Of a stretch of 64,000 nt of DNA, positions 25,794 through 52,050 are shown in pieces. Below the pieces are notes generated by a model. The model did not search any database. It was not told the DNA's origin and worked only from the letters and a program-made list of their open reading frames with translations. The translations under genes and the position numbers were made by a program. Source of the stretch: Flavivirga eckloniae (GTDB taxonomy: Bacteria > Bacteroidota > Bacteroidia > Flavobacteriales > Flavobacteriaceae). Positions within the stretch are counted from its first letter, which is position 1. The number at the start of each line of letters is the position of its first letter. Where the stretch lies: assembly GCF_002886045.1 (NCBI RefSeq), contig NZ_CP025791.1:5223001-5287000 (forward strand), given 5' to 3'.

Positions 25794-26924
25794 ATGCAAT
25801 TAAGAGTAAAAATAGCATTTGTTAAAAACGTTATATTAGGATTACTTATCATATTAAGTGTTTTTTTAGGATGCTCTAAAAAAGAGGTAGCACTCGAAAA
25901 ATTTAAAGTTAAAAGAGGAACTAACATTGCCCATTGGTTGTCGCAAAGCGATAGAAGAGGTATAGAAAGAGAGCAATTCTTCACTAAAGCAGATGTTGAA
26001 AAAGTTGCCAGTATGGGGTTCGATCATATTAGATTACCCATAGACGAAGAACAAATGTGGGATGAAAATGGAAACCGTCATGAAGATGCCTTTCAACTTA
26101 TGGAAAGCTGCATTAATTGGTGTGCCGAAAACAATCTTAGAGTAATTGTCGACATGCATATTTTAAGATCACATCATTTTAATGCAAAAGAAAAACCTTT
26201 GTGGACAGACCCTGCAGAACAAGATAAGTTTTTCGATTTGTGGAAAGACCTATCAAAATCGCTAAAAAAATTCCCAAATAGTTTAGTTGCTTACGAGTTA
26301 ATGAATGAGGCCGTTGCAGACAATCATGAATCTTGGAATAATTTATTAAACAAAGCCGTTTCTGTTATTCGCGAATTGGAAAAAGAACGCACCATAGTAA
26401 TAGGTTCGAACAGATGGCAAGCCGTAGATACCTTTGACGCATTACGAGTACCAGAGAATGATAAAAACATCCTTTTAAGCTTTCACTTTTACGAGCCTTT
26501 TCTTTTAAGTCATTATGCAGCAAGATGGACCTATTTAAAAGATTATAAAGGCCCAGTACATTACCCCGGTAAAATTTTAACCAGACAAGAATTTGAATCA
26601 CTTCCAGAAGCTATTAAAGCAAATGCAGAGGTCGAAAAATGGGTAGATAAGGAGTTTAATAAAGAGGTGCTGTTTGATATGTGGCAAAAACCTATTAAAA
26701 AAGCTAAAGATTTAGGATTACAATTATACTGCGGTGAATTTGGAATTATTTCTAACGCACCAGAAGAAATAGGGCTTATCTGGTATCAAGATATGATTGA
26801 GCTTTTTAACGAAACAGGTATAGGCTATGCCAATTGGAATTATAAAAGCGACAATTTTGGATTGACTCATATGGATGGCACAGAAAATAAAGAACTTATA
26901 TCAATTGTTTTGAGCAGTAAATAA
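25794..26924 (+). CDS. glycoside hydrolase family 5 lipoprotein
   Basis: 376 residues with a lipoprotein signal (LIILSVFLGCSKK). GH5 TIM-barrel features in order: RGTNIAHWL, MGFDHIRLPI, NLRVIVDMHI, acid/base Glu in ELMNEAVA near residue 175, SFHFYEPF, and nucleophile Glu in YCGEFGI near 314. GH5 enzymes of this kind cut beta-linked glucans or mannans; the subfamily cannot be fixed by eye. As a lipoprotein next to SusCD it is likely surface-exposed and makes the first cut. It ends eight bases before the ECF sigma gene. Confidence 0.9.
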   Translation: MQLRVKIAFVKNVILGLLIILSVFLGCSKKEVALEKFKVKRGTNIAHWLSQSDRRGIEREQFFTKADVEKVASMGFDHIRLPIDEEQMWDENGNRHEDAFQLMESCINWCAENNLRVIVDMHILRSHHFNAKEKPLWTDPAEQDKFFDLWKDLSKSLKKFPNSLVAYELMNEAVADNHESWNNLLNKAVSVIRELEKERTIVIGSNRWQAVDTFDALRVPENDKNILLSFHFYEPFLLSHYAARWTYLKDYKGPVHYPGKILTRQEFESLPEAIKANAEVEKWVDKEFNKEVLFDMWQKPIKKAKDLGLQLYCGEFGIISNAPEEIGLIWYQDMIELFNETGIGYANWNYKSDNFGLTHMDGTENKELISIVLSSK

Positions 26925-26932: not shown

Positions 26933-27448
26933 ATGTTGAATAATATTATAGAAGCCGGTCTAAACCCTCAAATAGAGACAATGTTTCTAAAGCATTATAA
27001 AGAATGGTGCTTGCTTTCTTATAGCTATATGGAAGATATGTCTGAAGCAGAGGATATGGTTCAGGATGTTTTTGTGAAAATTTTAAAAAGAAAAAAAGCT
27101 ACCAGAATTTTAGATCTCAAAAATTATATTAGTATGGCAGTTCGAAATACCTGTTTAAAGCGGATACAACGAACAAAAAAAACAGAACGGATTAAAGATT
27201 ATAGTTTAGCTGCTTTATCACCTTCTCATGAAGAGTTTTTAATTGATATAGAAAACAGAACAAAAATAGAAAATGCACTAAACGTTTTACCTACACAAAG
27301 TAAGCGGGTTTTTGAATTATGCGTATTAGAAGGTGCTAAATATAAGAGCGCAGCAGATGTATTGGGAATATCAATAAATACAGTGAAGTTCCATTTAAAG
27401 AAATCGTTTAAAATATTACGTTTTACATTGCAAAGTGCCTATATTTAG
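26933..27448 (+). CDS. ECF-type sigma-70 factor
   Basis: 171 residues. Sigma-70 region 2 is seen at about 15-80 (EAEDMVQDVFVKIL, then NYISMAVRNTCLKRIQR) and region 4 at about 115-165 (LPTQSKRVFELCVLEGAKYKSAADVLGISINTVKFHLKKSFKILR). It belongs to the Bacteroidota ECF group usually paired with a FecR-type anti-sigma and a SusC receptor carrying an STN domain. Here the partner 124 bases downstream is only 71 residues long and the SusC lacks an STN domain, so classical trans-envelope signalling looks incomplete. Confidence 0.9.
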   Translation: MLNNIIEAGLNPQIETMFLKHYKEWCLLSYSYMEDMSEAEDMVQDVFVKILKRKKATRILDLKNYISMAVRNTCLKRIQRTKKTERIKDYSLAALSPSHEEFLIDIENRTKIENALNVLPTQSKRVFELCVLEGAKYKSAADVLGISINTVKFHLKKSFKILRFTLQSAYI

Positions 27449-27978: not shown

Positions 27979-30900
27979 ATGAAAAACAATAAAAGTTTTG
28001 GGCTTATAAGGCTCAATTCACTTAAAATAAACTTAAAAATGAAGGTCACTTTACTTTTGTCTATAGTTTCATTTTTTTTAATTCAGATTCCGACGTATGC
28101 TACCCATACGATTTTTGTATTAGAACACAATACGGTTGAGGATATCTATACCCAGAGATCGGTTTCAGGAACTATAAAAGATGAGGAAGGTATTCCTTTA
28201 CCAGGAGCGAATGTTGTGGTTAAAGGAACAAATAATGGCTCACAAACCAATTTTGATGGTAATTATAATATATCTAATGTATCAGATAATGATATATTGG
28301 TTGTAAGCTATATAGGTTATATTACCCAAGAAGTGCCAATTAACGGACAATCTACAGTAAACATTATCCTTGTTGAAGACACACAATCTTTAAATGAGAT
28401 TGTTGTTGTTGCCTATGGTACAACCAGTAAAAAGGATTTAACAGGAGCAATATCTGTAATAGGAACAGAGGAACTTAATACATTTCCCGCAACAACAGTC
28501 GATCAGGCGTTGCAAGGTAAGACCAGTGGTGTTCAGGTTACTGCAAACTCCGGAGCACCCGGTGCGTCGGTTACAGTTAATATTCGTGGTGTGGGTTCTT
28601 TTGGAAGCACGACACCTCTTTATGTTGTTGATGGTTTTCCAACAAACAACATTAATTTCATAAACCCGAATACTATCGAATCAATATCGGTTCTAAAAGA
28701 TGCTTCGGCTACAGCGTTATATGGAGTACGTGCAAGTAATGGGGTTGTAATAATCCAAACAAAGCAAGGAACCAGAGGTCGTATATCTGTTGAGTTAAAT
28801 TCTTTTATAGGATTCAACACCCAACCGAAAAAAGTTGATGTATTGGACGTTAACCAATTCGCAGGTTTGGCTTTAGAACTTAGTGGTAGCAGTAATGTTG
28901 ATGTTTCAGGTACAGCTGTACCATATGCAGGATGGAGTAATGCATCGAGTCTTAGAAATATTGACTGGCAAGATGAAGTTTTTAGTCAAGCTTTATCAAA
29001 AAGTACGACTTTAACCGTAACAGGAGGAGGAGAAAAGTCTCGAGTAGCTTTTACAGCAGGTATTTTTGATCAGGAAGGAACACTTATTGGTTCAGAATAC
29101 AAACGTTATGATTTAGCTTTAAATGCTTCTTTTGATATTACAGAAAAATTAAGATTAAAAACGAATACTAAATATGTATCATCTCAAAACTTTCAACCAT
29201 TAGGAACTGGGCGTGGATCGTTATTAAATCTATATACTACAGTTCCACATTTAGCACCAGCGGGAGAAGCAAATCTTAGAGGCGGAACAAATCCAACAAA
29301 TCTCCCAGTAGATGCAGAAGGCAATTTTGGTGCATTTCCAGATGTGGTAGGAGAAGCTTTTCGTGATGGAAGAAACTGGGTAGCGAGAGCTTTAGAAAAT
29401 GATCAAGATAATGTAACCAACACGATATTAACAAATATTGGTGCAGAATGGGATATATATGGAGGGCTTAGTACAAAATTAAATGTAGGAGCAAGAGTTG
29501 ATAATTTTGCAGGATGGGGCTTCAATCCTAAATATTATAGAAGTAACGGTAATATAGATTTAAGGGAAGATGCTACCTATACATATACGCAAAGTACATC
29601 CAACCAGTGGTTAGCAGAATACATTTTACAATATAACAAGACGTTTGCTGAAAAACATACCGTAGATGTGTTAGGTGGTATTTCTGTACAGAGAACATTT
29701 AATAAATTTAGCCAAGTGGTAGGTCGTGGTTTCTTAGATAATAGAATTCGAGATATAGCGCAGGCCGAAGCTATTCAAAGTGCAGCAGGTAATTCTTCCA
29801 GACAAACATTAGCAAGTACTTTTGCAAGACTAAATTATAGTTTTGACAGTAAATACTATGTTACAGGAACTATAAGAAGAGATGGTGTAGGAGACACCTT
29901 TGGAGCAGATAATTTATGGGGTGTATTCCCTTCGTTTGCATTAGGTTGGAACATAGATGAAGAAGCATTTATGGAAGACAGTGCTTTTAACGTGTTAAAA
30001 TTTAGAGCAAGTTGGGGAGAAACCGGTAACTTTAATGGTATACAACCTTTCCGTTTTGGTACTACATTTAATAATGGAACCCCATTAAACGATTCCAGTT
30101 ATAGTTTTGGAGGAAATGGTTCTCTAGGTTTGGCACCAGTTGGAGCTTCAAATCCAGGTTTAAAATGGGAAGCACAGCAACAAACCAATATTGGTTTAGA
30201 AGGTGAGCTTTTTGGCGGGAAACTCTATTTTACAGCCGATTATTTTAACAGAACGTCCAAAGACTTTTTATTATTTATTAGTAGTCCAGCGCAATCTGGC
30301 TTTCCAATAGTACCTGTAAATGGTGGAACTATTGAAAATAAAGGATTTGAACTGTTGGTAGGATACAAAAAAATTGATGGAGACTTTACGTTCGACATCA
30401 ATGCCAATATTACTACTATAAATAATGAAATTACCGAACTTGATACACCTTCTAACGAAGTTACATTTAGTAACACATTTCTGGATACCTTTTTTGAACA
30501 AGGTTTCTGGTATGATATAACAAGATCGAAATTAGGAGGTGAAGCAGGGGCTTTCTATGGTTTTGTTGCCGACGGAATTTTCCAAAATCAAGCCGAAATA
30601 GATGCGCTTAACAGTACTGCTCCCGATGGGAATTTTCAGGCAGATGAAACATCTCCTGGCGATCGTAGATTTGCAGATTTAAATGGAGATGGTGAAATTA
30701 CAGGAGAAGATAGAACGACAATTGGAAGCCCGATACCGGATTTCTACGGAAGCTTAAACTTGAATTTCTCATATAAAAACTTCGACTTAGGTTTGAATTT
30801 TTATGGTTCTTATGGAAGTGAAATATTTAACCTAGTAAGACGAGAATTAGAAAGTGCTTCAGGTTATGGTAACAAAGAATCTTTTTCTAATGTAGGTACA

Positions 30901-31275
30901 GAATATTTTAATAATAGATGGAATGGAGAAGGTTCAACAAATGTGTATGCCAGAGCTTTAATAGATGATAGTAATGTACAGAATAATAGAGCTTCTAGTT
31001 ATTTTGTTGAAGATGGTTCCTATTTAAGATTACGAAACTTAAATATTGGATACAGATTGCCTTCAAAAATTATAGAGAAATTAGGATTAAATTCTTTTAG
31101 AATATATACGAGTATTCAAAATGTATTTACAATTACAGATTATTCAGGATCCGATCCTGAAATTGGTCAAAACTCAGACATAAACGGAAACAGCAACGTA
31201 ACAACAAGGGGTATTGATGCAGGCGCATACCCACTCTCAAGTTCATTTACGTTAGGATTTAATTTAAAATTTTAA
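27979..31275 (+). CDS. SusC-like TonB-linked outer-membrane transporter
   Basis: 1098 residues. Long signal region (second Met near residue 21, then VTLLLSIVSFFLIQIPTYA); CarboxypepD_reg domain at about 60-145 (SGTIKDEEGIPLPGANVVVKGTNNGSQTNFDGNY); the SusC signature NEIVVVAYGTTSKKDLTGAIS; plug with RGVGSFG, PLYVVDGFPTN, LKDASATALYGVRASNGVVIIQTK; then a barrel ending SFTLGFNLKF. SusC proteins import oligosaccharides with the SusD lid. It has no N-terminal STN domain. susD follows 10 bases after the stop. Confidence 0.96.
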   Translation: MKNNKSFGLIRLNSLKINLKMKVTLLLSIVSFFLIQIPTYATHTIFVLEHNTVEDIYTQRSVSGTIKDEEGIPLPGANVVVKGTNNGSQTNFDGNYNISNVSDNDILVVSYIGYITQEVPINGQSTVNIILVEDTQSLNEIVVVAYGTTSKKDLTGAISVIGTEELNTFPATTVDQALQGKTSGVQVTANSGAPGASVTVNIRGVGSFGSTTPLYVVDGFPTNNINFINPNTIESISVLKDASATALYGVRASNGVVIIQTKQGTRGRISVELNSFIGFNTQPKKVDVLDVNQFAGLALELSGSSNVDVSGTAVPYAGWSNASSLRNIDWQDEVFSQALSKSTTLTVTGGGEKSRVAFTAGIFDQEGTLIGSEYKRYDLALNASFDITEKLRLKTNTKYVSSQNFQPLGTGRGSLLNLYTTVPHLAPAGEANLRGGTNPTNLPVDAEGNFGAFPDVVGEAFRDGRNWVARALENDQDNVTNTILTNIGAEWDIYGGLSTKLNVGARVDNFAGWGFNPKYYRSNGNIDLREDATYTYTQSTSNQWLAEYILQYNKTFAEKHTVDVLGGISVQRTFNKFSQVVGRGFLDNRIRDIAQAEAIQSAAGNSSRQTLASTFARLNYSFDSKYYVTGTIRRDGVGDTFGADNLWGVFPSFALGWNIDEEAFMEDSAFNVLKFRASWGETGNFNGIQPFRFGTTFNNGTPLNDSSYSFGGNGSLGLAPVGASNPGLKWEAQQQTNIGLEGELFGGKLYFTADYFNRTSKDFLLFISSPAQSGFPIVPVNGGTIENKGFELLVGYKKIDGDFTFDINANITTINNEITELDTPSNEVTFSNTFLDTFFEQGFWYDITRSKLGGEAGAFYGFVADGIFQNQAEIDALNSTAPDGNFQADETSPGDRRFADLNGDGEITGEDRTTIGSPIPDFYGSLNLNFSYKNFDLGLNFYGSYGSEIFNLVRRELESASGYGNKESFSNVGTEYFNNRWNGEGSTNVYARALIDDSNVQNNRASSYFVEDGSYLRLRNLNIGYRLPSKIIEKLGLNSFRIYTSIQNVFTITDYSGSDPEIGQNSDINGNSNVTTRGIDAGAYPLSSSFTLGFNLKF

Positions 31276-31285: not shown

Positions 31286-32845
31286 ATGAATTTAAAAATT
31301 AAAAATATTAAGCTATTTGGATTTGGTGTTTTTGGTATCTTTTTAATAGCACTAATATATGGATGCTCAGATAGCTTTTTACAAGACACGAATACAAAAG
31401 ATTTAACAGAAACCGTGGTTTTTGGGGCAGATGAAACAGCTTTGGCAGCCGTAACAGGTGTTTATGATGGATTTCAAAACGATTCACAGGGAGATCCAGG
31501 TTTACCAAACGAATATAATGTAAAAGGTATTTTTAGAATGGCCAATAATATTTCGTTGGATTGGCAGGATAATACACCGAGAGATCAATCTGATTATTTT
31601 GATTTTGATCTTGATCCGGATTCAGATGTTCCGGTAAAAATATGGCCAAATAATTACAGAGCCATTGGAAGAGCCAACAATGCCCTTGAGAACTTACAAC
31701 CTGCCATTGATGCTGGAAGTGTTTCGGCTGAATTAGGCGATCGATTGATAGGGGAAGTTTTAGTGCTTAGAGCTATTGCGTATCAATATTTAGCAGCGAC
31801 TTATGGAGACGTGCCTTTAATGCTTTCTCAAGGTGATGATCCATTTAAAGGGAAAGATCCGGAAAGTACCGTATACCAACAAATAGTAACAGATATGACT
31901 GATGCTGTTAACAGGTTACCATGGTCTCATGATGTTGATAAAGGTCGTGTTACAAAAGGAACAGCATACGCTGTATTAGGAAATGCACATATGTGGTTAG
32001 GACAATACGATGAGGCAGTTGCAGCCTTTGAAGCAATAGAAACCGGAGGTGTTACATCATTGGAACCTAACTATCTTGATATTCACGATGTAGATAATAG
32101 GAATGGAGTAGAATCTCTTTTTGAGTTACAATGGGCAGCCAATGGTGATTTAGCTTGGAGTAGAAATGATGAAGTGAATATATTACAATTATTTGCAATG
32201 CCTACCGATATTACTGGTGGTGGAGGTTTTGCCGGAATTCCAACGAAAGAGTTATACGACTCTTTTGAGGCGGGAGATTTAAGAAGACAAGCTACGGTTA
32301 TTGGTCCTGGAGAGGAACATCCAGATCCGGATATTAACATTAGTATGTATGATGGCATAAGCATTAATACATGCGGAACAGTTGCTGAACCTTGGACAGG
32401 AGGTGACCCAGTGGGAAGAACCGGATATTGGGGTGTAAAATCCTGGAGAGACCATAACATTAACGGATGGGGTAGATCGGTACTTTTTGGACCACAAGGC
32501 CACATTTGGATTCGTTATGGAGAAGTGTTGTTAAGTTTGGCAGAATCAGCATTAAAAGCTGGACAAACTGCAAAAGCACAGGCCGCTTTCGATAGAGTAA
32601 GAAATCGTGCATGGGGCGGAGCAGCACCTGCCAAAGTAGTATCCATGGATAATATATTACAAGAATATAGACATGAGTTAGGCGGTGAGTTTTCTTTATG
32701 GCCTGTAATTAGAAGATCGGGTGAGGCCACTAAATATATGCAAGATACATATGGCGTTACTATTCCGACAGGTCATGAGTTAGTACCAATATCTAATGCA
32801 GATTTAAGTATTAACCCTAATTTGGAGCAAAACGACGGATATTAA
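31286..32845 (+). CDS. SusD/RagB-like surface glycan-binding lipoprotein
   Basis: 519 residues with lipoprotein signal (LIYGCSDSFL). SusD features: AVTGVYDGFQ, YRAIGRANNALENL, GEVLVLRAIAYQYLAATYGDVPL (TPR-like helix), WIRYGEVLLSLAESALKAG, and the C-terminal LWPVIRRSG with HELVPISNADLSINPNLEQNDGY. It forms the lid over the SusC barrel and binds the glycan. An 82-base gap with a hairpin-like AGGCTTTGAA/TTCAAAGCCT (about 32881-32910) separates it from the next gene and may attenuate transcription. Confidence 0.95.
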   Translation: MNLKIKNIKLFGFGVFGIFLIALIYGCSDSFLQDTNTKDLTETVVFGADETALAAVTGVYDGFQNDSQGDPGLPNEYNVKGIFRMANNISLDWQDNTPRDQSDYFDFDLDPDSDVPVKIWPNNYRAIGRANNALENLQPAIDAGSVSAELGDRLIGEVLVLRAIAYQYLAATYGDVPLMLSQGDDPFKGKDPESTVYQQIVTDMTDAVNRLPWSHDVDKGRVTKGTAYAVLGNAHMWLGQYDEAVAAFEAIETGGVTSLEPNYLDIHDVDNRNGVESLFELQWAANGDLAWSRNDEVNILQLFAMPTDITGGGGFAGIPTKELYDSFEAGDLRRQATVIGPGEEHPDPDINISMYDGISINTCGTVAEPWTGGDPVGRTGYWGVKSWRDHNINGWGRSVLFGPQGHIWIRYGEVLLSLAESALKAGQTAKAQAAFDRVRNRAWGGAAPAKVVSMDNILQEYRHELGGEFSLWPVIRRSGEATKYMQDTYGVTIPTGHELVPISNADLSINPNLEQNDGY

Positions 32846-32927
32846 TTATTTGAAAGTGGTTTAATAATGATTTTAATTTTAGGCTTTGAATTATTATAAT
32901 TCAAAGCCTTTTCCCTAAATTTAAGAG

Positions 32928-35900
32928 ATGAAAATTAGTTATATCGGTCTTGTTTTATTACTCTTATTAATGGCTTGTGAAGAACAACAAGCAAACAAGC
33001 AGTTTAGGCTTCTACCATCAAGTGAAACCGGTATTACATTTTCAAACGATATTGTAGAAACCGATAGTTTAAATTATTTTAATTACCCTTACATGTATAT
33101 GGGAGGTGGCGTATCTGCGGGAGACATCAATAACGATGGTCTTGTAGATTTGTTTTTTACAGCCAACATGAAACCCAATGTACTTTATTTAAACAAAGGC
33201 AATTTTAAGTTTGAAAATATTACCAATACAGCAAAAGTAGCTGGCGATGATAGATGGGTAACCGGAACCACTATGGTAGATATAAATAATGATGGTTATT
33301 TAGATATTTATGTAAGCGTTTCGGGAAAAGGAACGAACAGAAATAATCTCCTGTATGTAAATAATGGCGATACTACATTCACAGAAAAATCTGAAGCCTA
33401 TGGTATTAACAATAATGGACATACCACACAAAGTACATTTTTTGATTACGATAATGATGGCGATCTAGATTTATATCTGGCAAACTACCCGCCAACACCT
33501 TTTAAAAGTCCTGTAGAGCTTTATAAGCACAAAGCAAATCATCCTAAAATAGAAGAATCTGATATTTTATATCGAAACAATGGCGATGGTTCCTTTACAG
33601 ATGTTACCGTTGAAGCCGGCATCTTAAATTTTGGTTTGTCTTTAAGTGCTACAATTGCCGATTTTAATAATGATGGATGGAAAGATATTTATGTTTCCAA
33701 CGATTTTGATTCTGCAGATTATCTGTACATCAACAATAAGAATAGCACGTTTACGGAAATAGCAGGGAAATCGCTTAACCATACCGCGCAATATGGTATG
33801 GGGGCAGATGTTGCCGATTATAACAACGATAACCTTATGGACATAGCCCAAGTGGATATGACCCCCGAAGACAACAGAAGATCTAAAGCCAATATGGCAA
33901 GCATGAATCCAATAGGATTTACTAAAATGATAAACGCAGGTTTAAACTACCAGTATATGCAAAATTGTCTTCAGCTTAACAGAGGAAATGATGACACAGG
34001 CAGTCCCGTTTTTAGTGAAGTATCCAGATTGGCTGGTATAGCTACAACCGACTGGAGTTGGTCAATCCTTTTTGCAGATCTGGATAATGATGGTTGGAAA
34101 GATGTAACCGTATCTAATGGTACAAGAAGAGATATAAATAATAGAGATTACTTTAATAAGTTAAAATCCAGAAATCATTTTGGAGGTGTAAAACTATCGG
34201 CAGAAGAAATAAAAAAAATTCCATCAGAGAAAGTATCAAACTATGTTTATAAAAATACTAAAGACTATACATTTAAAAATATGGTGTCCGAATGGGGTTG
34301 GGAAGAAAAAACCTTTTCTAACGGTGCCGTTTATGCCGATTTGGATAATGATGGCGATTTGGATTTTGTTATAAACAACATAGACCAAAAAGCATCAGTT
34401 TACAAAAACAATAACCTAGATAACAATAACTATTTACAAGTCACTCTAAAAGGCCCAAAAACCAATAAAAATGGTTTAGGGGCTAAGGTTTACATTTCTT
34501 CCGATTCATTGAATCAGTTTAATGAGTTAACGCTATCCAGAGGTTTTCAATCGTCGGTAAGTCCACAATTGCATTTTGGCATAGGGAAGGCACAAAACAT
34601 TTCTAAAGTACGTGTAGTGTGGACAAATGGCACAGTTTCAGAAATAAAAGATGTAACAGCAAACCAAAACCTAGTAGTAGACTTTACCACAGCAGTTAAA
34701 CCGACCAAGTCAGGTTTAATACATGATCCCGTTTTTAAAACAGCCGTTTTAGACTCGCTTAAAGTAGACTTTAAGCATACAGAGAATGTGTATGACGATT
34801 ATTTTTCCGAACCACTTCTTCCTCACAAAACATCTATGCTAGGATCTGGTATAACAGTTGCAGATGTAAATGGGGATGGCTTAGACGATTTTTATATAGG
34901 AGGTGCATCAAAACAACCTGGAGCTCTCTTTATACAAAATGCAAAAGGAACGTTTGTTAGGACAAACCAACAAATATGGGAGGTCGATAAAGAAAGAGAA
35001 GATATGGGGGCTCTGTTTTTCGATGCTGATGCCGATGGTGATCAAGATTTATACGTAGTAAGCGGAGGTAATGAAAAAAGCGATGAGGTATCGCACTTTC
35101 AAGACCGTTTGTATTTAAATAATGGCAAAGGGAAATTTACTAAAGGAGAAACGAGTCTGCCAATAATGGAGACTAGCGGCTCTAGAGTAAAAGCTGGAGA
35201 TTACGACGGAGATGGGGATTTAGATTTATTTATTGGAGGCCGATTGGTTGTTGGTCAATACCCATGGCCTACGAAAAGCTATATTTTAAATAACGATAAT
35301 GGTGTTTTTAAAGATGTAACTGCGCAGTTGGCACCCGATTTTAACACATTGGGAATGGTAACCGATGCTATTTGGACAGATTTTGATGCAAATGGAACAC
35401 TGGATTTAATTATAGTAGGCGAGTGGACACCCGTTTTGTTTTACAGCAATACAGGAGATACGTTTAAAAATGTTACAAAAAGTACAGGTTTGGATAATAC
35501 GAACGGTTGGTGGTTCAGCATTACCCAAGATGATTTTGATAATGATGGCGATATGGATTATGTATTAGGTAATCTGGGACTTAACTATAAGTATAACGCA
35601 ACAGCAGAAGAGCCTTTTGAAGTATATGCTGACGATTTTGACGGTAATAACAGAAAGGATATTGTTTTAAGTTATTATAATTTTGGTAAGCTGTTTCCTG
35701 TGCGAGGTAAGTCGTGCTCATCACAACAAATGCCATCACTAAGTAAAAAGTTTGAGCAGTATAATGAGTTTGCAGTAGCAGAAGTCGCTGAGGTATACGG
35801 AAAAGAAGAATTGGAAAACGCAGAAATTCATTATAAAGCACAAACGTTTGCCAGTAGTTATATAGAGAATTTAGGTGGAGGTAAGTTTAAGCTAATGCAA

Positions 35901-36212
35901 CTTCCTAACGAAGCCCAACTCTCATCGGTAAATAAAATAATCTCAGACGATATTGACAACGACGGGTTTAAGGATATTTTAATTGCCGGAAACTTATATG
36001 CATCAGAAATAGAAACTCCAAGAAACGATTCTAGTATAGGCACCTATTTAAAAGGCGATGGCAAAGGGAATTTCTTTCCTGTTCCTAGTATAACATGCGG
36101 TTTATCAATAAGGGGTGATGTAAAGGACTTAGCCACATTACGAGTTAATGGCGATAAATACATTATAGCTGTTAAGAACAACGATTACCCACAATTTATT
36201 ATGATAAACTAA
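32928..36212 (+). CDS. VCBS/FG-GAP repeat lipoprotein with ASPIC/UnbV domain
   Basis: 1094 residues, lipoprotein signal (LLLLLMACEEQ). Many FG-GAP/VCBS propeller repeats with DxNxDGxxDL or DxDxDGxxDL calcium loops (for example DINNDGLVDLFF, DYDNDGDLDLYL, DYDGDGDLDLFI) form two propellers. Between them, at about 505-585, lies an ASPIC/UnbV domain (NYLQVTLKGP, NGLGAKVYI, GFQSSVSPQLHFGIG, VRVVWTNGT). The fold is that of CRTAC1-like proteins. Such proteins occur in marine Bacteroidota beside SusCD; whether they bind glycan or are enzymes is not established. It stops eight bases before the multiheme cytochrome gene, so the two probably act together. Confidence 0.9.
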   Translation: MKISYIGLVLLLLLMACEEQQANKQFRLLPSSETGITFSNDIVETDSLNYFNYPYMYMGGGVSAGDINNDGLVDLFFTANMKPNVLYLNKGNFKFENITNTAKVAGDDRWVTGTTMVDINNDGYLDIYVSVSGKGTNRNNLLYVNNGDTTFTEKSEAYGINNNGHTTQSTFFDYDNDGDLDLYLANYPPTPFKSPVELYKHKANHPKIEESDILYRNNGDGSFTDVTVEAGILNFGLSLSATIADFNNDGWKDIYVSNDFDSADYLYINNKNSTFTEIAGKSLNHTAQYGMGADVADYNNDNLMDIAQVDMTPEDNRRSKANMASMNPIGFTKMINAGLNYQYMQNCLQLNRGNDDTGSPVFSEVSRLAGIATTDWSWSILFADLDNDGWKDVTVSNGTRRDINNRDYFNKLKSRNHFGGVKLSAEEIKKIPSEKVSNYVYKNTKDYTFKNMVSEWGWEEKTFSNGAVYADLDNDGDLDFVINNIDQKASVYKNNNLDNNNYLQVTLKGPKTNKNGLGAKVYISSDSLNQFNELTLSRGFQSSVSPQLHFGIGKAQNISKVRVVWTNGTVSEIKDVTANQNLVVDFTTAVKPTKSGLIHDPVFKTAVLDSLKVDFKHTENVYDDYFSEPLLPHKTSMLGSGITVADVNGDGLDDFYIGGASKQPGALFIQNAKGTFVRTNQQIWEVDKEREDMGALFFDADADGDQDLYVVSGGNEKSDEVSHFQDRLYLNNGKGKFTKGETSLPIMETSGSRVKAGDYDGDGDLDLFIGGRLVVGQYPWPTKSYILNNDNGVFKDVTAQLAPDFNTLGMVTDAIWTDFDANGTLDLIIVGEWTPVLFYSNTGDTFKNVTKSTGLDNTNGWWFSITQDDFDNDGDMDYVLGNLGLNYKYNATAEEPFEVYADDFDGNNRKDIVLSYYNFGKLFPVRGKSCSSQQMPSLSKKFEQYNEFAVAEVAEVYGKEELENAEIHYKAQTFASSYIENLGGGKFKLMQLPNEAQLSSVNKIISDDIDNDGFKDILIAGNLYASEIETPRNDSSIGTYLKGDGKGNFFPVPSITCGLSIRGDVKDLATLRVNGDKYIIAVKNNDYPQFIMIN

Positions 36213-36220
36213 GATGTTAT

Positions 36221-37456
36221 ATGAAAAAACGATCCCCAAATTTTAAAATCCGAAAATATTTCGGTCTTATTATAGTTTTACTTGTTTTATGTTTTTTAGT
36301 GTACAAAAACGCATCCGATTTTTCCCTATTTAGTACCTATGTTCCTGTTGAGCCTATAGCTGTACACAATAACGGAAAGGGTTTTGCTGGGTCTGCAACC
36401 TGTGTAGAATGCCATTTAGAAATATATAACACGCATATTGAAACCGCACATTACAAATCAACAGCCAAAGCAAATTTAAAAACAGTAAAGGGAAGTTTTA
36501 CACCTCCCAAAAACAGTTTTAGTTTAAATGATTCCATAGAATTTAAGATGGAAAATAGAAACGGTTTGTTGTATCAAGAGGCTTTTTTAAAATCCGATAA
36601 TCAACGTATTAGTAGCTCGCGTTTCGATATTACCATTGGTTCCGGAACTAAAGGACAATCTTATTTAAAATGGAAAGATAGCTCCCTGTACCAATTACAA
36701 GTTACATATTTTACATCCAATGATAGTTGGGTTAATAGTCCGGGATATCCGTCTGATCGGCTAGCTTCCGATAGACCTATTTTTGAAAGATGCTTAGAAT
36801 GTCATATGACCTATGCTAAAAGCACAAAACAGTTTAATAAACGTAACAGTTACAGAAAATCTCAAATAGTTTACGGTATAGATTGCGAACGTTGTCATGG
36901 CCCGGCACTAGACCATGTAAATTTTCATAGAGAAAACCCATTAGATACTGTTGCCATGCACGTGGTAAAACATAGTGACTTAACTAGACAACAAAATTTA
37001 GATGCCTGTGCTTTATGCCATTCTGGATTAAGAATGCGAAGGAGTAAGGATCCTTTCATTTTTGTAACAGGAGATACTTTAAATAAATTTTCCACTCCAG
37101 ATTATACAGAGAAAGATTTGGAAGAATTAGATGTTCATGGAAATCAATACGGATTACTTTCTGCTAGTAAATGTTTTAAGAAAAGTGATGCTATGAATTG
37201 TACCACATGCCATAACCCACATGAAAACCAAAGAGGCAACCGTGTGTCATTCAACAAAAAATGCCAAAGCTGCCACGGTAAGGGTGATGGGTTTCATGGT
37301 GTTTGTACAGCATCAGAAGCAAGTAAAGAAGCTTCTAATAATAATTGTATTCAGTGCCATATGCCTATAGTACTTTCAAAAACAATGAAAATAGAAACCT
37401 CTGCAGATACATTAAATCCTGTACCAGTACGTACCCATTTTATCGGAATTTATTAG
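36221..37456 (+). CDS. seven-heme c-type cytochrome
   Basis: 411 residues with one N-terminal anchor helix (YFGLIIVLLVLCFLVY) and a periplasmic part. I count seven CxxCH heme sites: CVECH, CLECH, CERCH, CALCH, CTTCH, CQSCH, CIQCH. Spacing and the YNTHIETAHYKSTAKA region resemble cytochrome c554/NrfH-like multiheme proteins. It would accept or pass electrons in the periplasm. Eight bases after the UnbV lipoprotein and in the middle of a polysaccharide locus, it suggests redox chemistry tied to glycan breakdown (inference). A terminator follows at 37736. Confidence 0.92.
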   Translation: MKKRSPNFKIRKYFGLIIVLLVLCFLVYKNASDFSLFSTYVPVEPIAVHNNGKGFAGSATCVECHLEIYNTHIETAHYKSTAKANLKTVKGSFTPPKNSFSLNDSIEFKMENRNGLLYQEAFLKSDNQRISSSRFDITIGSGTKGQSYLKWKDSSLYQLQVTYFTSNDSWVNSPGYPSDRLASDRPIFERCLECHMTYAKSTKQFNKRNSYRKSQIVYGIDCERCHGPALDHVNFHRENPLDTVAMHVVKHSDLTRQQNLDACALCHSGLRMRRSKDPFIFVTGDTLNKFSTPDYTEKDLEELDVHGNQYGLLSASKCFKKSDAMNCTTCHNPHENQRGNRVSFNKKCQSCHGKGDGFHGVCTASEASKEASNNNCIQCHMPIVLSKTMKIETSADTLNPVPVRTHFIGIY

Positions 37457-37735: not shown

Positions 37736-37770
37736 TGGCAGCTATTCGAATAGCTGCCACATATTTTTTT
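37736..37770 (+). terminator. terminator after the cytochrome gene
   Basis: A perfect 24-base palindrome made of TGGCAGCTATTC and its complement (37736-37759), then CATA and a T-run to 37770. It ends the susC-to-cytochrome transcript. Confidence 0.85.
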
Positions 37771-37956: not shown

Positions 37957-38052
37957 TAAATTTTCTTATCCAAGATTCACGTTGATTTAGGGTGTATTAA
38001 CGTTTGCCCCAATTAAATATTAAAGCCTAATAGGTATTAGAAATAATAAAAG

Positions 38053-40347
38053 ATGTTAAAATTGTTTAAGCCATTTATTTTGTTTGTCCTCACAAATCAC
38101 CAGAATTCTTATGTTCAAAGAAAAACTTTAAGAATAAGTTTCATTCCAATAAAAAATACAACGAAGCAAGTTTGTAAAAAAACGTTTTTGTTTGTCTTTA
38201 TAATGTTAATGAGTTATTCGGTTGATGCACAAAAAACACAAATAATGGAAAAAAAGATAGATAGTATACTCACTTTATTAACCCTGGAGGAAAAAGTAGC
38301 GATGTGTCATGCACAATCCAAATTTAGCACACCCGGAGTTCCGCGTCTTGGAATTCCCGAAATATGGATGTCTGATGGTCCCCATGGTGTACGTGCAGAA
38401 TTAAAATGGGATAGCTGGGATTATGCAGAGTGGGGAAATGATTCCATAACGGCCTTTCCGGCTCTAACCTGTTTGGCTTCTACATTCAATCCGGCCCTAT
38501 CCAAAGCCTATGGCGTTAGTGTTGGAGAAGAAGCACGCTATAGAAAAAAGGACGTGTTATTAGGGCCAGGCGTTAATATTTACAGAACGCCATTAAACGG
38601 AAGAAACTTCGAATATATGGGAGAAGATCCATATTTAGCCTCTAAGTTGGTGGTGCCCTATATAAAAGGCGTTCAGGAAAATGGCGTGGCAGCCTGTGTG
38701 AAACATTTTGCCGTTAACAACCAAGAGTTATGGAGAGATCATATTAATGTTGAGGTAAGCGATAGAGCACTTTATGAGATTTATTTACCAGCTTTTAAAG
38801 CATCGGTTATAGAAGGCGGTGTTTGGGCTATAATGGGATCCTATAACAAATTTAGAGGGCAATATTGTAGCCATAATGAATTACTGCTTAACAAAATTTT
38901 AAAAACAGATTGGGATTTTGATGGGGTTGTAATAAGCGATTGGGGAGCTACACATAACACCTATGAGTCTGCCATGTTCGGTTTGGATATGGAAATGGGA
39001 ACAGGAACAGATGGATTAGGAACAACGGCACTTAATCATTACGATCGTTATTACCTCGCATTGCCGTTTTTAGAATCAATAAAAAAGGGAGAGATTGATG
39101 AAGCCGTTGTTGATGATAAGGTTAGACGCATTCTTAGATTGATGCATAGAACTAACATGAACCTAAACCGGCCTTGGGGAAAAATGAATAATGTAGAGCA
39201 CCATGATGTAGCACGTAAAGTTGCAACAGAAGGGATTGTGCTATTAAAAAACAAAGAAAGTTTCTTTCCCATAAAAGATAAAAAAGAATTAACTATAGCT
39301 GTAATTGGAGAAAATGCAACACGTTCAATGACATTAGGTGGCGGTTCTTCTGAATTGAAACCGCAATTTGAAATATCGCCATTAGAAGGCTTAAAAAAAC
39401 GATATAAAAATGCTAAGATTTTACACACTATGGGGTTTGCCTCAGGACCATCGGCTTACGATGAAGTACTACCATCGCCTTATAATGCCGATTCTCTTAA
39501 AGTTGAAGCCCTTAAATTAGCTAAAAAAGCAGATGTCGTATTGTTTTTTGGAGGATTGAATAAAAGCCATCATCAGGATTGCGAAGGTGACGACAGAAAA
39601 CAATTCAAACTACCCTTTGGGCAAGACGAATTACTAGACGATATTATAGCTCTTAATAAAAATACAGGCGTGATATTGTTAACTGGTAATGCTGTAGAAA
39701 TGCCTTGGTTAGGAAAAATTAATGGACTTATACAAGGTTGGTACCTTGGTAGTATAGCAGGAAATGCTCTGGCAGATGTTATTAGTGGTGATGTAAACCC
39801 ATCTGGAAAATTACCTTTTTCATTTCCAGTAAAACTAAAAGATAATGCCGCACATTATTTTGGTGAATTGTCGTATCCCGGAGACAGTATTAATCAATAC
39901 TATAAGGAAGATATTTTAGTAGGATACCGTTGGCACGATACTAAAAAAATCAAACCGTTATTTGCTTTTGGCGAAGGACTGTCTTATACCTCATTCGAAC
40001 TTAAAAACTTCAAATTGAAACAAAAAACATATACAAAGGACGAAAACATTATTGTTTCTGGTGAGGTATTGAACACAGGAGGTTTGGATGGAGCAGAAGT
40101 CGTTCAAGTTTATATAGGAAAGCCTAAATCGAAAGTAAAAAGAGCCGTCAAAGAATTAAAAGGATTTAAAAAAGTGATTGTTGAAAAGGGAGAAACTAAA
40201 TCTGTAGAAATAACAATTAATGTAAATGATTTGGCTTTTTATGACGAGAGCATTTCAGACTGGAACTTAGAGAAAGGAAGTTATATAGCTTACATCGGTA
40301 ATGCATCCAATAACGTAACAGAGAAGATAAAATTTGAAATCAAATAA
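38053..40347 (+). CDS. glycoside hydrolase family 3, beta-glucosidase/xylosidase type
   Basis: 764 residues. GH3 TIM barrel (PRLGIPEIWMSDGPHGVR, GPGVNIYRTPLNGRNFEYMGEDPYLA, CVKHFAVNNQE, GSYNKFRG), catalytic nucleophile Asp in VVISDWGATH near residue 296, then the alpha/beta sandwich (EGIVLLKN) and a C-terminal fibronectin III-like domain (SYTSFEL, GGLDGAEVVQVYIG). The true signal peptide seems to be KKTFLFVFIMLMSYSVDAQ near residues 52-70, so translation may start later than the listed ATG. Periplasmic; releases glucose or related sugar from oligomers. It follows a terminator and starts a second transcription unit with the next GH3. Confidence 0.93.
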   Translation: MLKLFKPFILFVLTNHQNSYVQRKTLRISFIPIKNTTKQVCKKTFLFVFIMLMSYSVDAQKTQIMEKKIDSILTLLTLEEKVAMCHAQSKFSTPGVPRLGIPEIWMSDGPHGVRAELKWDSWDYAEWGNDSITAFPALTCLASTFNPALSKAYGVSVGEEARYRKKDVLLGPGVNIYRTPLNGRNFEYMGEDPYLASKLVVPYIKGVQENGVAACVKHFAVNNQELWRDHINVEVSDRALYEIYLPAFKASVIEGGVWAIMGSYNKFRGQYCSHNELLLNKILKTDWDFDGVVISDWGATHNTYESAMFGLDMEMGTGTDGLGTTALNHYDRYYLALPFLESIKKGEIDEAVVDDKVRRILRLMHRTNMNLNRPWGKMNNVEHHDVARKVATEGIVLLKNKESFFPIKDKKELTIAVIGENATRSMTLGGGSSELKPQFEISPLEGLKKRYKNAKILHTMGFASGPSAYDEVLPSPYNADSLKVEALKLAKKADVVLFFGGLNKSHHQDCEGDDRKQFKLPFGQDELLDDIIALNKNTGVILLTGNAVEMPWLGKINGLIQGWYLGSIAGNALADVISGDVNPSGKLPFSFPVKLKDNAAHYFGELSYPGDSINQYYKEDILVGYRWHDTKKIKPLFAFGEGLSYTSFELKNFKLKQKTYTKDENIIVSGEVLNTGGLDGAEVVQVYIGKPKSKVKRAVKELKGFKKVIVEKGETKSVEITINVNDLAFYDESISDWNLEKGSYIAYIGNASNNVTEKIKFEIK

Positions 40348-40388: not shown

Positions 40389-42635
40389 ATGAAACAGTAT
40401 TTAGCAATTATAGCACTCGTTTTAATGAGTTGCTCTCAAAATAAAACCACAACCGTTAAAAACAACGGTGAAGAAAAGTTTATAGACAGTGTATTGGCAA
40501 CGATGTCTATAGATGATAAAATAGGGCAAACCAATTTAAGAGGAACGTCGAGTAGAGCTAAAACTTTGTCGGAAGAATTAAAGGAAGATGTAAGACAAGG
40601 TAAAGTGGGAGCATTGCTAAATGTTATGAAGGTTGAGTTTGTAGACGAGCTTCAAAAAATAGCAGTAGAGGAAAGTCCTAATAAAATCCCTTTAATTTTT
40701 GGAAGGGATGTTGTTCATGGGTTTAAAACCATATTTCCCATTCCTATAGGCTTGGCAGCTTCATGGGATACGGAAATAGCAAAATCGTCATCCAGGGTTG
40801 CAGCTATAGAAGCCAGTTCTGTTGGAATTCGTTGGACCTTCGCACCCATGTTAGATATTGCTAGAGATAGCCGTTGGGGAAGAATAGCAGAATCTCCCGG
40901 AGAAGATCCATATTTAGCATCTGTATTAGGAAAAGCTTATGTTGAGGGTTTTCAAGGAGATTCCTTAAATAATCCAACAAGCATAGCCGCATGTGCTAAG
41001 CATTATATAGGTTATGGTGCAGCTATGGGAGGTAGAGACTATAATACCACAGTAATCCCCGAAGCATTGTTACGCAATGTGTATTTACCTCCCTTTCAAT
41101 CTGCTTTAAACGCTGGAGCGGCAACTGTAATGACATCTTTTAATGAAATAAATGGTATTCCGGCAACCGGAAATGAATTTTTATTAAAACAAGTTTTAAG
41201 AGATGAGTTAAAGTTTGACGGGTTTGTAGTAAGCGACTGGGACTCTGTTGTAGAAATGATTGCTCATGGCTATGCAAGAGATGAAAAACATGCTGCGGAA
41301 CTGGCAGCCAAGGCAGGCATGGATATGGAAATGACCAGTAACGCTTATGAGCTTCATCTAAAAAAGCTGATTGAACAAGGCAAGGTTACAGAAGGGCAGC
41401 TCAATGTATTTGTAAAGAATATTTTAAGAATAAAATATAGATTAGGGTTGTTTAATACCCCTTATAGGGATAAAAATAATGAGGCAGCTTTTTATGCAAA
41501 AGCACATTTGGAAGAAGCCAAGGAAGCTGCGATTAAAAGCTCGGTACTGCTAAAAAATGAGCAGGTATTGCCTATGTCGAGCCAAACAAAAGTAGCTTTA
41601 ATAGGTCCTTTGGCCAATGCCCCGTTAGATCAAATGGGAACTTGGACATTCGATGGTGAAAAGGCACACACTATAACGCCTTTAAAAGCATTTGAAACTG
41701 CTAACGTAAACTTTACTCATATAAAAGCATTAACGCATAGTAGAGACCGATCGAAAGCACAGTTTAAAAGTGCTGTTAATGCAGTAAAGAATTCTGATGT
41801 GATCGTGTTTGTAGCGGGCGAGGAGGCTATTCTGTCTGGAGAGGCACATAGTAGGGCAAATATAGATCTGCCTGGGGTACAAGAAGACTTGATAAAAGCA
41901 TTGAGTGAAACAGGAAAACCTATAGTTTTAGTTATTATGGCTGGGCGTCCCATTACCATTACAAACATTATTGATGATGTAGATGCCGTTTTAATGGCTT
42001 GGCATCCCGGTACTATGGGCGGTGTGGCATTGCAGGAGATTCTTTTTGGATTAAGGGAACCAGAAGGCAGATTACCAGTATCCTGGCCGAAAACTGCCGG
42101 ACAGTTACCTTATTTTTATAACCATAAAAATACGGGCAGACCTGCTAATAAAAAAGATTATGTTGCTATGTATGATATTCCTGTAGGTGCTTGGCAAAGT
42201 TCCTTAGGTAATGATTCCCACTATTTAGATGTGGGGTATACACCACATTTTCCGTTTGGTTTTGGTTTAGGGTATACAGCGTTTAAATATACCGATTTAG
42301 AAATATCAAAAGACACCATTGGTTTTAACGAAACCTTACAAGTAAAAGTTTCTATTACAAATGTCGGGGAAAGACCCGGTAAAGAAGTCGTACAGTTTTA
42401 TGTACAGGATGTAGTTGGTAGTATAACCCGACCAGTTAGAGAGTTAAAAGGGTTTCAGCACATCAGTTTAAATAAAGGAGAAACAAAAGAGGTGGTATTT
42501 AAATTATCGACAGGGGCGTTAGGTTTTTCGAATCATAAAATAATGCATACTGTTGAAGAAGGTGATTTTAATTTATGGGTGGGGGCCCAGGCCACCTCTG
42601 GTTTAAAAGGTGCTTTCTATCTTAAAGAATATTAG
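40389..42635 (+). CDS. glycoside hydrolase family 3, BglX-like lipoprotein
   Basis: 748 residues with lipoprotein signal (IIALVLMSCSQ). BglX-type features: IPLIFGRDVVHGFKTIFPIPIGLAASWD, WTFAPMLDIARDSRWGRIAESPGEDPYL, KHYIGYGAAMGGRDYN, nucleophile Asp in FVVSDWDS near 283, C-terminal domain GRPITI-WHPGTMGGVALQEILFG and FnIII end with EVVQFYVQD. Periplasmic beta-glucosidase acting on imported oligomers. It lies 41 bases after the first GH3 and is likely co-transcribed. Two dissimilar GH3 suggest two linkages or two chain ends. Confidence 0.94.
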   Translation: MKQYLAIIALVLMSCSQNKTTTVKNNGEEKFIDSVLATMSIDDKIGQTNLRGTSSRAKTLSEELKEDVRQGKVGALLNVMKVEFVDELQKIAVEESPNKIPLIFGRDVVHGFKTIFPIPIGLAASWDTEIAKSSSRVAAIEASSVGIRWTFAPMLDIARDSRWGRIAESPGEDPYLASVLGKAYVEGFQGDSLNNPTSIAACAKHYIGYGAAMGGRDYNTTVIPEALLRNVYLPPFQSALNAGAATVMTSFNEINGIPATGNEFLLKQVLRDELKFDGFVVSDWDSVVEMIAHGYARDEKHAAELAAKAGMDMEMTSNAYELHLKKLIEQGKVTEGQLNVFVKNILRIKYRLGLFNTPYRDKNNEAAFYAKAHLEEAKEAAIKSSVLLKNEQVLPMSSQTKVALIGPLANAPLDQMGTWTFDGEKAHTITPLKAFETANVNFTHIKALTHSRDRSKAQFKSAVNAVKNSDVIVFVAGEEAILSGEAHSRANIDLPGVQEDLIKALSETGKPIVLVIMAGRPITITNIIDDVDAVLMAWHPGTMGGVALQEILFGLREPEGRLPVSWPKTAGQLPYFYNHKNTGRPANKKDYVAMYDIPVGAWQSSLGNDSHYLDVGYTPHFPFGFGLGYTAFKYTDLEISKDTIGFNETLQVKVSITNVGERPGKEVVQFYVQDVVGSITRPVRELKGFQHISLNKGETKEVVFKLSTGALGFSNHKIMHTVEEGDFNLWVGAQATSGLKGAFYLKEY

Positions 42636-42832: not shown

Positions 42833-45229
42833 TTATTTAAAATCCGAAGAAACGAATGATAATATTTCTCCTTTTGTTGTTTCTCGTGAAATCATTTTTT
42901 TTCCGTATCTCAAATTTAAGTTATTTCCTTCGATAGATTTAACTTCCACTGTTACCAATTCCCCATTTTTCCATTCGATTGAAAGCTCAAAAGCGCCTCT
43001 ACCTTTTATTCCTGAAATTTTTCCAGAGGAGAGCGTTGAAGGAAGCGCAGGAAGAATATCTTGAAAATAGTCGCCTTTTTCATCACGTAAATGCGATTGT
43101 AATAGCATTTCGGTAATACCAGAAGTGGCTCCAAAATTTCCATCTATTTGAAAGGGTGGATGTGCATCAAATAAATTCACGTATAGACCTCCCCCTTCTA
43201 TTTTTTTACCATCTGGATTTTGAGTTATGGCTGGAACCATTAGATTTTTAAGTATTAAAAATGAATGATCCCCATCTAAAAGTCTTGCCCAAAAATTAAT
43301 TTTCCATGCTCGAGACCATCCGGTTCCACCATCGCCACGATGTTTAAGTGTTATTTTACATGCCTCTGCTAAATTTGGAGTTGTTAAAGGATGAATTTCA
43401 TTTCCTGGATGCAGCCCCCATAAATGCGAAACATGACGGTGCTCGTTATTCGGATTATCTTTATCAACTAACCACTCTTGCAATTGACCATGTTGACCAA
43501 TTAAGTTGGGGGCAATTTTAGCTCGTTTTTCTTTAATCATTTCGACAAATTCTGCATCAACCCCAAGTATTTCTGCAGCCTCAATGGTATTACTGAAAAG
43601 GTTTCTTATAATCTGATGGTCCATGGTTGGCCCCATCACCAGACCTCCATTTTCGGGACTGTTACTTGGACCGCTAATTAACCATTTTGGATTGTTGGGA
43701 TCGGGTGTTAAATATCCAACAAAAAATCTTGAGGCTTCTTTTAATATTGGATAAGCTTTGTTTTTTAAGTATTCCTTGTTATTGGTAAATTGATAATGCC
43801 ACCACAAATGTTTGCATAACCATGCACCTCCAGTAACCCAAATACCATGATTCGAATTATTAATAGGAGCAGCACCTCTCCACAAATCGGTGTTATGATG
43901 AGCTACCCAACCATCAAGGTTATAGTGTTCTTTTGCTACATTTTGTCCGCTCACCGCTAAGTCTTCCACCATTTGAATCATTGGACTTGTTAATTCTGAC
44001 AGATTCGTAATTTCAGCTAGCCAGTAATTCATTTCAGCATTAATATTTAGGGTGTATTTGCTATCCCAAGACGGATTAAGTTGGTCATTCCAAATGCCTT
44101 GCAAATTGGCTGGTTGCGTGCCTGCTCTTGACGAAGAAATCAACAAGTATCTTCCATATTGAAACAAAAGAGAAACTAAACTAGGGTCTTCATCTTGTTC
44201 AAAAGAAATTAGTCGTTCGTTCGTAGGACGGTTTGAAATCTCTGAAGTTCCTAATTCCAGTTCTACACGATTAAAGAGCTTTTGGAAGTCTTTTATATGA
44301 TTGTTTTTTAATTCTTTATATGATTTACCGTTTAAACCTTTGAGGTAATTTTCACATAGTTGGGCCGGATTACCACTAATATCTTTGAAATTGACAAAAC
44401 TTGTTGCAGCGACAAGTTGTATAGTTGCTGTGTTAGCATTGACTACCTTTATAGTATCATTTTCGATTACTAATTTACCCCCGTCATTTACTATTTTTAA
44501 ACGGGCTTCAAAAGTGATTTTGCTTTCGGGGTAAGGTGCTTTAATTACATCTAACGCTCTAGGATAATTATTAGCTTTACCCTTTAAAATAATTTCGTTC
44601 CCATTTACTATTACATCGTATTTAGAGTGTGGGGAATTTAAACCGATTGTAAAATTTAGTTTACCCTTTTTTGATGCTTCAATACGAATCAAAATTGCCT
44701 GATTTGGTTTAGAAACTAAAGCTTCACGTTTAAATTTGATGTTATCAATTTCATAGCTAACTGTGGTGATAGCGTTTTCTAAATTCAGTATTCGCTTAAA
44801 ATTAATTGCTTTTTCATGCTTTGGAAAATTTAATAAAATATTTCCAAAAGGTTGATAACTAAACTGACCAAAAGGTTGTGACATGAAGCGTTCATTTCCC
44901 AATTTATGAGCTTGTTTTTGCTTACCTTCTGAAAGTAGTTGACGCAACTCGTCTAATACTTTATATGCCTCTTTATTTGCATAATCGTGTGGTTGTCCAG
45001 TCCATAATGTTTCTTCGTTAAATTGAATGGTTTCATTTACTGTTCCACCGTAGACCATAGCGCCCAAACGTCCATTTCCGATTGGCATAGCTTCGGTCCA
45101 ACTACCTGCAGGTTTATCGTACCAAAGCATTGTAGATGGGTTTAATTCCTTTTCAATTTTTGAAAGATTGTCACAAGAAAATAGTTTTAATACAAATAAT
45201 ATAAGAACAAATCGAATTAGTTTTTTCAT
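42833..45229 (-). CDS. glycoside hydrolase family 95 (alpha-L-fucosidase/galactosidase type)
   Basis: 798 residues, lipoprotein-type signal (FVLKLFSCDN). GH95 hallmarks: LWYDKPAGSWTEAMPIGNGRLGAMVYGG, ETLWTGQPHDY, LQGIWNDQLNPSWDSKYTLNINAEMNYW with the catalytic Asn residues, the (alpha/alpha)6 core PTMDHQIIRNLF, HRHVSHLWGLHPG, and IDGNFGATSGITEML. The family inverts alpha-1,2-linked fucose or galactose. It converges with the second GH3 and is transcribed separately, so it may serve another glycan or remove side groups from the same one; fucosylated xyloglucan would fit GH5, GH3 and GH95, but no GH31 xylosidase is present. Confidence 0.93.
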   Translation of the reverse strand: MKKLIRFVLILFVLKLFSCDNLSKIEKELNPSTMLWYDKPAGSWTEAMPIGNGRLGAMVYGGTVNETIQFNEETLWTGQPHDYANKEAYKVLDELRQLLSEGKQKQAHKLGNERFMSQPFGQFSYQPFGNILLNFPKHEKAINFKRILNLENAITTVSYEIDNIKFKREALVSKPNQAILIRIEASKKGKLNFTIGLNSPHSKYDVIVNGNEIILKGKANNYPRALDVIKAPYPESKITFEARLKIVNDGGKLVIENDTIKVVNANTATIQLVAATSFVNFKDISGNPAQLCENYLKGLNGKSYKELKNNHIKDFQKLFNRVELELGTSEISNRPTNERLISFEQDEDPSLVSLLFQYGRYLLISSSRAGTQPANLQGIWNDQLNPSWDSKYTLNINAEMNYWLAEITNLSELTSPMIQMVEDLAVSGQNVAKEHYNLDGWVAHHNTDLWRGAAPINNSNHGIWVTGGAWLCKHLWWHYQFTNNKEYLKNKAYPILKEASRFFVGYLTPDPNNPKWLISGPSNSPENGGLVMGPTMDHQIIRNLFSNTIEAAEILGVDAEFVEMIKEKRAKIAPNLIGQHGQLQEWLVDKDNPNNEHRHVSHLWGLHPGNEIHPLTTPNLAEACKITLKHRGDGGTGWSRAWKINFWARLLDGDHSFLILKNLMVPAITQNPDGKKIEGGGLYVNLFDAHPPFQIDGNFGATSGITEMLLQSHLRDEKGDYFQDILPALPSTLSSGKISGIKGRGAFELSIEWKNGELVTVEVKSIEGNNLNLRYGKKMISRETTKGEILSFVSSDFK

Positions 45230-52029: not shown

Positions 52030-52041
52030 AGTATTTCAATT

Positions 52042-52050
52042 ACTGCTAAC
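52042..52050 (-). repeat. cassette-boundary half-site
   Basis: Minus-strand GTTAGCAGT before the RNA ligase gene, equal to the GTTAGCAGT end of the attC-like site at 51004-51012 (forward strand). It marks the right edge of the cassette-like block; nothing similar is seen beyond it on the nrdD side. Confidence 0.45.

Follow-up and report, generated by a model that had tools for sequence, protein, structure and literature searches.

In this study, we found that a heptaheme c-type cytochrome recurs in Bacteroidota as an optional accessory of SusC-SusD-UnbV loci, which is the strongest statement that the data allow. The cytochrome gene examined here lies in a window of 64,000 nucleotides (the whole stretch of DNA that was analysed), in the single 5.67-Mb contig of a Flavivirga-type member of the Flavobacteriaceae. 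Tentatively, and with somewhat less than even confidence, we propose that the two adjoining proteins have separate jobs, UnbV as a surface lipoprotein and the cytochrome as a periplasmic relay that would feed the respiratory chain with electrons released as imported sugars are oxidised.

Organization of the Locus

The genes are ordered HTCS, GH5, ECF sigma factor, SusC, SusD, UnbV, cytochrome and two GH3 genes, with a GH95 gene on the opposite strand. On the plus strand, the hybrid two-component regulator (HTCS), a PUL regulator with Reg_prop, Y_Y_Y, HisKA, HATPase, Response_reg and AraC HTH domains (20868..25013), is followed by a GH5 glycoside hydrolase with a lipoprotein-like N-terminus (25794..26924; Cellulase PF00150, E 6e-37), the ECF sigma factor (26933..27448; Sigma70_r2/r4, TIGR02985), the SusC TonB-dependent transporter (27979..31275; TIGR04056, E 7e-259) and the SusD lipoprotein (31286..32845; SusD-like_3, SusD_RagB). 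Downstream on the same strand are the open reading frames of UnbV (32928..36212, 1094 aa) and the cytochrome (36221..37456, 411 aa), 8 bp apart; the first GH3 gene starts 597 bp after the cytochrome gene ends. The two GH3 genes, (a) at 38053..40347 (Pfam) and the BglX-like (b) at 40389..42635 (profile matches), are also on the plus strand, and the GH95 family enzyme is encoded on the minus strand (42833..45229; Pfam). The initial annotation had placed an UnbV gene and a seven-heme cytochrome gene 8 bp apart, after susD and before exo-glycosidase genes, and the open reading frames, Pfam and TIGR04056 bear this out. With its SusC and SusD pair and the linked GH5, two GH3, HTCS and ECF sigma factor genes, the locus is a Sus-type PUL for the import of a plant- or algae-type sugar polymer.

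Folding of the intergenic gaps revealed a terminator- or attenuator-like hairpin of 13 bp followed by TTTT between susD and UnbV (32881..32909, plus strand), and hairpins of the same form are present in five Flavivirga-type orthologous loci. The consensus terminator scan passed over this hairpin, probably for want of more than four T after the stem; the scan located a terminator-like hairpin 3' of the cytochrome gene (37736..37759, plus strand). As hairpins stand on both sides, UnbV and the cytochrome may form a unit of their own, which is probably transcribed less than susCD and separately from the GH3 genes. The gap between the cytochrome and GH3 genes also holds a palindrome-like stretch, CTGAACTTGTTTCAG (37525-37547), that occurs once within the window.

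The 5' end of an alpha/beta-hydrolase (esterase) gene survives as a remnant at 38050..38087 (plus strand). The esterase gene is intact in the sister species, and here its first codons are joined in frame to GH3 (38050-38160); in blastn, 38050-38087 matched the start of the esterase gene in locus L067 at 87%, and from 38140 on the sequence matched the esterase end and GH3 start. The deleted esterase gene has thereby given GH3 (a) a false-looking N-terminal extension. Elsewhere in the window, on the minus strand at 50995-54013, a T4-type RNA ligase 2 adjoins an anaerobic ribonucleotide reductase-like protein (NRDD).

UnbV as a Third Gene of SusCD Loci

In one subtype of SusCD locus, the third gene is ordinarily UnbV. 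The protein belongs to the UnbV/ASPIC family, with matches to FG-GAP_3 (E 2e-75) and UnbV_ASPIC (E 6e-20, 71.5 bits against a Pfam cut-off of 23.4), and in its AlphaFold model (pLDDT 87.8) the ASPIC domain separates two beta-propellers. The best PDB match by sequence and by fold was CRTAC1 (9etn), the other structural neighbours being generic propellers. The lipobox, LMAC-EEQQ, has acidic residues after LMAC, and this arrangement fits export to the cell surface. The genome holds nine UnbV copies of about 1100 aa, all in susCD loci; eight of them are without a seven-heme cytochrome and are accompanied by glycoside hydrolases, regulators and others, and UnbV stands beside only 8 of about 50 SusC genes. 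UnbV of this kind was found in 33 of 61 Flavobacteriaceae genomes, in up to 12 copies. Of 29 further flanking regions, more than half have a SusD gene next to UnbV, and the neighbours on the other side can be GH5, GH26, GH43 or NAGLU genes, and the order with UnbV after susCD recurs in other loci.

The initial annotation had taken both products for electron-transfer proteins outside the Sus paradigm. This holds for the cytochrome, which has seven CXXCH motifs and a C554 domain and is unusual in such a locus, but is not supported for UnbV, which is CRTAC1-like and regularly comes third in many SusCD loci that have no cytochrome at all; a redox role for it was rejected on the copies without a cytochrome and on the fold, and no redox-cofactor motif was seen in it. 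A direct redox pair of UnbV and cytochrome might be suggested by the 8-bp spacing and by an adjacency that is kept in both gene orders. We consider such a pair very improbable, as the two are predicted on different membranes, UnbV on the outer (lipobox) and the cytochrome on the inner one, and since the eight other copies in this genome do without the cytochrome and UnbV has no visible cofactor motif. We suggest that UnbV is a non-redox surface lipoprotein of a common SusC-SusD-UnbV module, which most likely binds or guides glycan at the transporter, like other surface glycan-binding proteins.

Two further arrangements of UnbV genes were observed. A subset adjoins a PAP2/vanadium-haloperoxidase-like gene and not SusD (L166, L169 and L170), and tandem triple UnbV genes recur in many Flavobacteriaceae (G022:C25, G034:C2, G437:C1, G449:C19, G455:C1 and G145:C1).

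Linkage of the Cytochrome to SusC-SusD-UnbV Loci

Close relatives of the cytochrome were collected from a scan of 84,980 species genomes, which gave 29 loci, and linkage was scored within 10 kb with profiles built from the sequences of this analysis. SusC and SusD lay within 10 kb of the cytochrome in 26 of the 29, and in 24 of these 26 UnbV was present as well, often less than 200 bp from the cytochrome. The closest named relatives are from Flavivirga species, and most genomes searched have just one copy of a close relative. Several architectures were seen, across Flavobacteriaceae, a Cytophagaceae MAG and Chitinophagaceae: SusC-SusD-UnbV-cytochrome in Flavivirga and Cellulophaga; cytochrome-UnbV facing SusD-SusC convergently in Ulvibacterium; cytochrome-SusC-SusD-UnbV in some Maribacter and a Cytophagaceae MAG; and SusC-SusD-lectin-cytochrome-UnbV in Chitinophagaceae, where some loci include PF10091 (glucoamylase-like) or GH30 enzymes. 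Two Allomuricauda loci and one Kriegella locus are exceptions without SusCD, and two Muricauda/Allomuricauda loci have SusCD and a GMC pair with UnbV out of reach. The 24 in 26 lies far above the base rate, for which one genome only was used (UnbV at 8 of its roughly 50 SusC genes). As the loci are not independent, we grouped them by eye into roughly seven architectures, six of which have UnbV; at that base rate, such an outcome has a chance of about 1e-4.

In the UnbV tree, the cytochrome-linked sequences are interleaved with unlinked copies from the genome studied here. The AU test rejected a single clade of cytochrome-linked UnbVs (p 1.6e-5), and the tree calls for three changes or more, which indicates that the pairing was gained or lost repeatedly. 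In quick trees with some long branches, Ulvibacterium is placed beside Flavivirga for the cytochrome and with Maribacter for UnbV, so partners have probably been exchanged between lineages. In another genus, the genome G439 has an orthologous locus (SusC 73%, SusD 64%, UnbV 76%, both GH3 about 70%) that also holds the esterase, gluconokinase, 6-phosphogluconate dehydrogenase (6PGDH) and GntP genes, while no cytochrome homologue was found at this locus or elsewhere in the genome. The cytochrome is therefore optional, and it would be an accessory that Bacteroidota have repeatedly attached to the SusC-SusD-UnbV module.

The initial annotation had allowed that the pair might prove to lie mostly outside PULs. 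This is not the case for the close clade, and the statement that the cytochrome is mostly in PULs must be confined to the clade with an identity of about 39% or more. More distant cytochromes of genus group g46 (probably Flavobacterium) have a clear lipobox and housekeeping neighbours such as recJ and lpxH (names by eye), and other distant forms are long, TPR-bearing proteins of 600-750 aa; no SusCD was present beside either kind in the loci examined. These housekeeping surroundings, the loci L076, L077, L082 and L133, which have no SusCD nearby, and G439, which lost or never had the gene, would all agree with a passenger near SusCD-UnbV gene-exchange hot spots that serves a general respiratory role. 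We regard this as fairly improbable: a passenger would show no preference for one SusCD subtype, whereas 24 of the 26 SusCD-linked cases are of the UnbV subtype, in several architectures and often with less than 200 bp to UnbV. In the literature searched, which covered few subscription papers, there was no report linking UnbV, FG-GAP proteins with SusD, or multiheme cytochromes to PULs.

Properties of the Cytochrome

The cytochrome is a multiheme cytochrome c of the C554 superfamily (Cytochrome_C554, E 9e-9, 36.6 bits against a cut-off of 20.8). It has exactly seven CXXCH motifs, all seven invariant across the 29 aligned relatives, and in the same sequences six further histidines outside these motifs are invariant (72, 77, 232, 306, 334 and 406). 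As six such histidines serve seven hemes, one heme may be open or methionine-ligated. The structural model is of moderate quality (pLDDT 71.5, pTM 0.66) and has an N-terminal membrane helix at residues 8-34. The protein has no lipobox and is not a lipoprotein. Several relatives have a lipobox-like cysteine, and the Flavobacterium-like forms have a clear lipobox; a conserved lipobox was considered and ruled out, being absent from the Flavivirga clade.

By profile (E 6.6e-11) and by fold, OcwA (6i5b) is the nearest solved relative, in a partial match with a TM of about 0.4 and about 18% identity. OcwA, a terminal reductase, is akin to NrfA, c554 and MccA; it has two open hemes and acts weakly on nitrite and hydroxylamine (PMC6703420). 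With this kinship and a heme that may be open, the cytochrome could be a reductase for small nitrogen or sulfur oxides, peroxide or metals that rides with sugar loci, whose expression would mark rapid respiration or algal surfaces. This is unlikely in our estimation, though it deserves some weight; the resemblance is partial, and such a role would not account for the cytochrome's preference for SusCD loci of the UnbV type. An OcwA-type terminal reductase would have nine hemes, a cell-surface location and a C-terminal three-helix bundle; the cytochrome has seven hemes, and no such bundle was identified in its model.

Electrons might also be sent outward, for oxidative glycan attack of an LPMO-like or Fenton type or to extracellular acceptors. 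OcwA is a cytochrome of extracellular electron transfer, and the Cbp2D and Cbp2E proteins of C. japonicus, reportedly involved in growth on cellulose, would be a possible parallel. We hold this to be quite improbable, as there is no LPMO or other copper oxidase among the locus genes examined and the Flavivirga-type clade has a predicted inner-membrane anchor. The earlier idea of an oxidative attack on a recalcitrant glycan is not supported either, the locus having no enzyme for the cytochrome to serve.

For the periplasmic relay that we prefer, we infer that the cytochrome is anchored in the inner membrane and faces the periplasm, that it most likely takes electrons from periplasmic dehydrogenases acting on imported oligosaccharides or sugars, for example in the oxidation of glucose to gluconate or in GMC-type oxidations, and that it passes them on to the respiratory chain.

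Candidate Electron Donors

Three-subunit GMC dehydrogenases, such as gluconate, sorbitol and glucoside-3 dehydrogenase, consist of a flavoprotein, a small subunit and a cytochrome c. GMC oxidoreductase and Gluconate_2-dh3 genes adjoin the cytochrome gene in three of the 29 loci (L078/L052, L087 and L088). Genes in L079 and L081 that had been taken for GMC genes from their sizes were ruled out, as they resemble an SSS symporter, an acetyltransferase and a melibiase-like enzyme. Within the window locus there is no dehydrogenase or other electron donor gene, and thus none for the flavoprotein and small subunit of a GMC complex; elsewhere in the genome, two GMC genes are partnered by Gluconate_2-dh3 genes, and there is a single GSDH sugar dehydrogenase. 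One Gluconate_2-dh3 gene beside a GMC gene (G000:C1:3728404-3728830, in L128) is split across two frames and possibly frameshifted.

Most orthologous loci hold gluconate catabolism genes. In five Flavivirga-type loci, gluconokinase, 6PGDH and GntP follow the GH3 genes, and the G439 locus adds a gluconolactonase-family gene to this trio. In the window species, the trio is in another cluster (L127, 3300000-3319990 of its genome), together with Kelch/DUF4038-like and DUF1080-like proteins (names by eye). A gluconolactonase-family protein, gluconokinase, 6PGDH and GntP are linked to beta-glucosidase PULs in L172 (4353-10884) and L048 (17752-19627).

The GMC and gluconate gene context favours, and does not prove, periplasmic sugar oxidation as the electron source. 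As proof of a donor the gluconate genes are weakened by G439, which has them without a cytochrome, and by the separate cluster in the window species; because the G439 locus keeps these genes without the cytochrome, the gluconate route is independent of it. Counted against the relay are these G439 genes, the lack of a dehydrogenase in the window locus, GMC neighbours in only 3 of the 29 loci, the role of OcwA as a terminal reductase, and the lipobox-like relatives, which could sit in the outer membrane. A link between uptake and respiration was nevertheless the best of the three ideas in the initial annotation; the recurrence of the cytochrome at SusCD loci speaks for it, and the missing donor gene in the window locus against it.

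Comparison with Known Systems

PULs are usually described in terms of hydrolysis and transport. In many other Bacteroidota, a relative of the cytochrome stands beside a transporter of this kind, a hint that sugar uptake is in some cases coupled to respiration. It is possible, though we would put it below an even chance by a clear step, that Bacteroidota have a recurrent 'redox PUL' type, in which SusC-SusD-UnbV and a dedicated heptaheme cytochrome couple periplasmic sugar oxidation to respiration, so that energy would be conserved before the sugar enters the cytoplasm. The many attachments of the cytochrome to one PUL subtype suggest that sugars in the periplasm supply marine and soil Bacteroidota with respiratory energy; this would bear on the competition of these bacteria for algal carbon. 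Furthermore, a common and little-described third component, UnbV, is now set apart from a rarer redox accessory, and orthologous loci with and without the cytochrome offer natural plus/minus pairs.

The usual cytochrome subunit of three-subunit GMC dehydrogenases has one to three hemes and belongs to another family. The likeness to those enzymes lies in the GMC and Gluconate_2-dh3 genes adjoining the cytochrome in L078, L087 and L088, whereas the window locus is without this pair and its cytochrome is of a different family. UnbV shares the FG-GAP propeller and ASPIC domain with CRTAC1 and other ASPIC-UnbV proteins (9etn), but the bacterial protein has two propellers and a lipobox, and its gene is part of SusCD operons. 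The heme-binding stretches of OcwA, the nonaheme cytochrome of Thermincola (6i5b; PMC6703420), are conserved in the window cytochrome, which differs in having seven hemes, a membrane anchor and a place in Bacteroidota glycan loci. Porphyran PULs of Flavobacteriia, in which a P450 with its own redox partners carries out oxidative demethylation alongside an NAD-dependent ADH (PMC10033563), likewise have redox proteins inside a glycan locus; the window locus, in contrast, has no oxidase next to its heptaheme c-type cytochrome. Its SusC, SusD, HTCS, ECF sigma factor, GH5, two GH3 and nearby GH95 are those of Sus-type PULs, and it departs from the classical Sus set in two ways, as UnbV takes the place of the surface glycan-binding protein and a heptaheme cytochrome is added.
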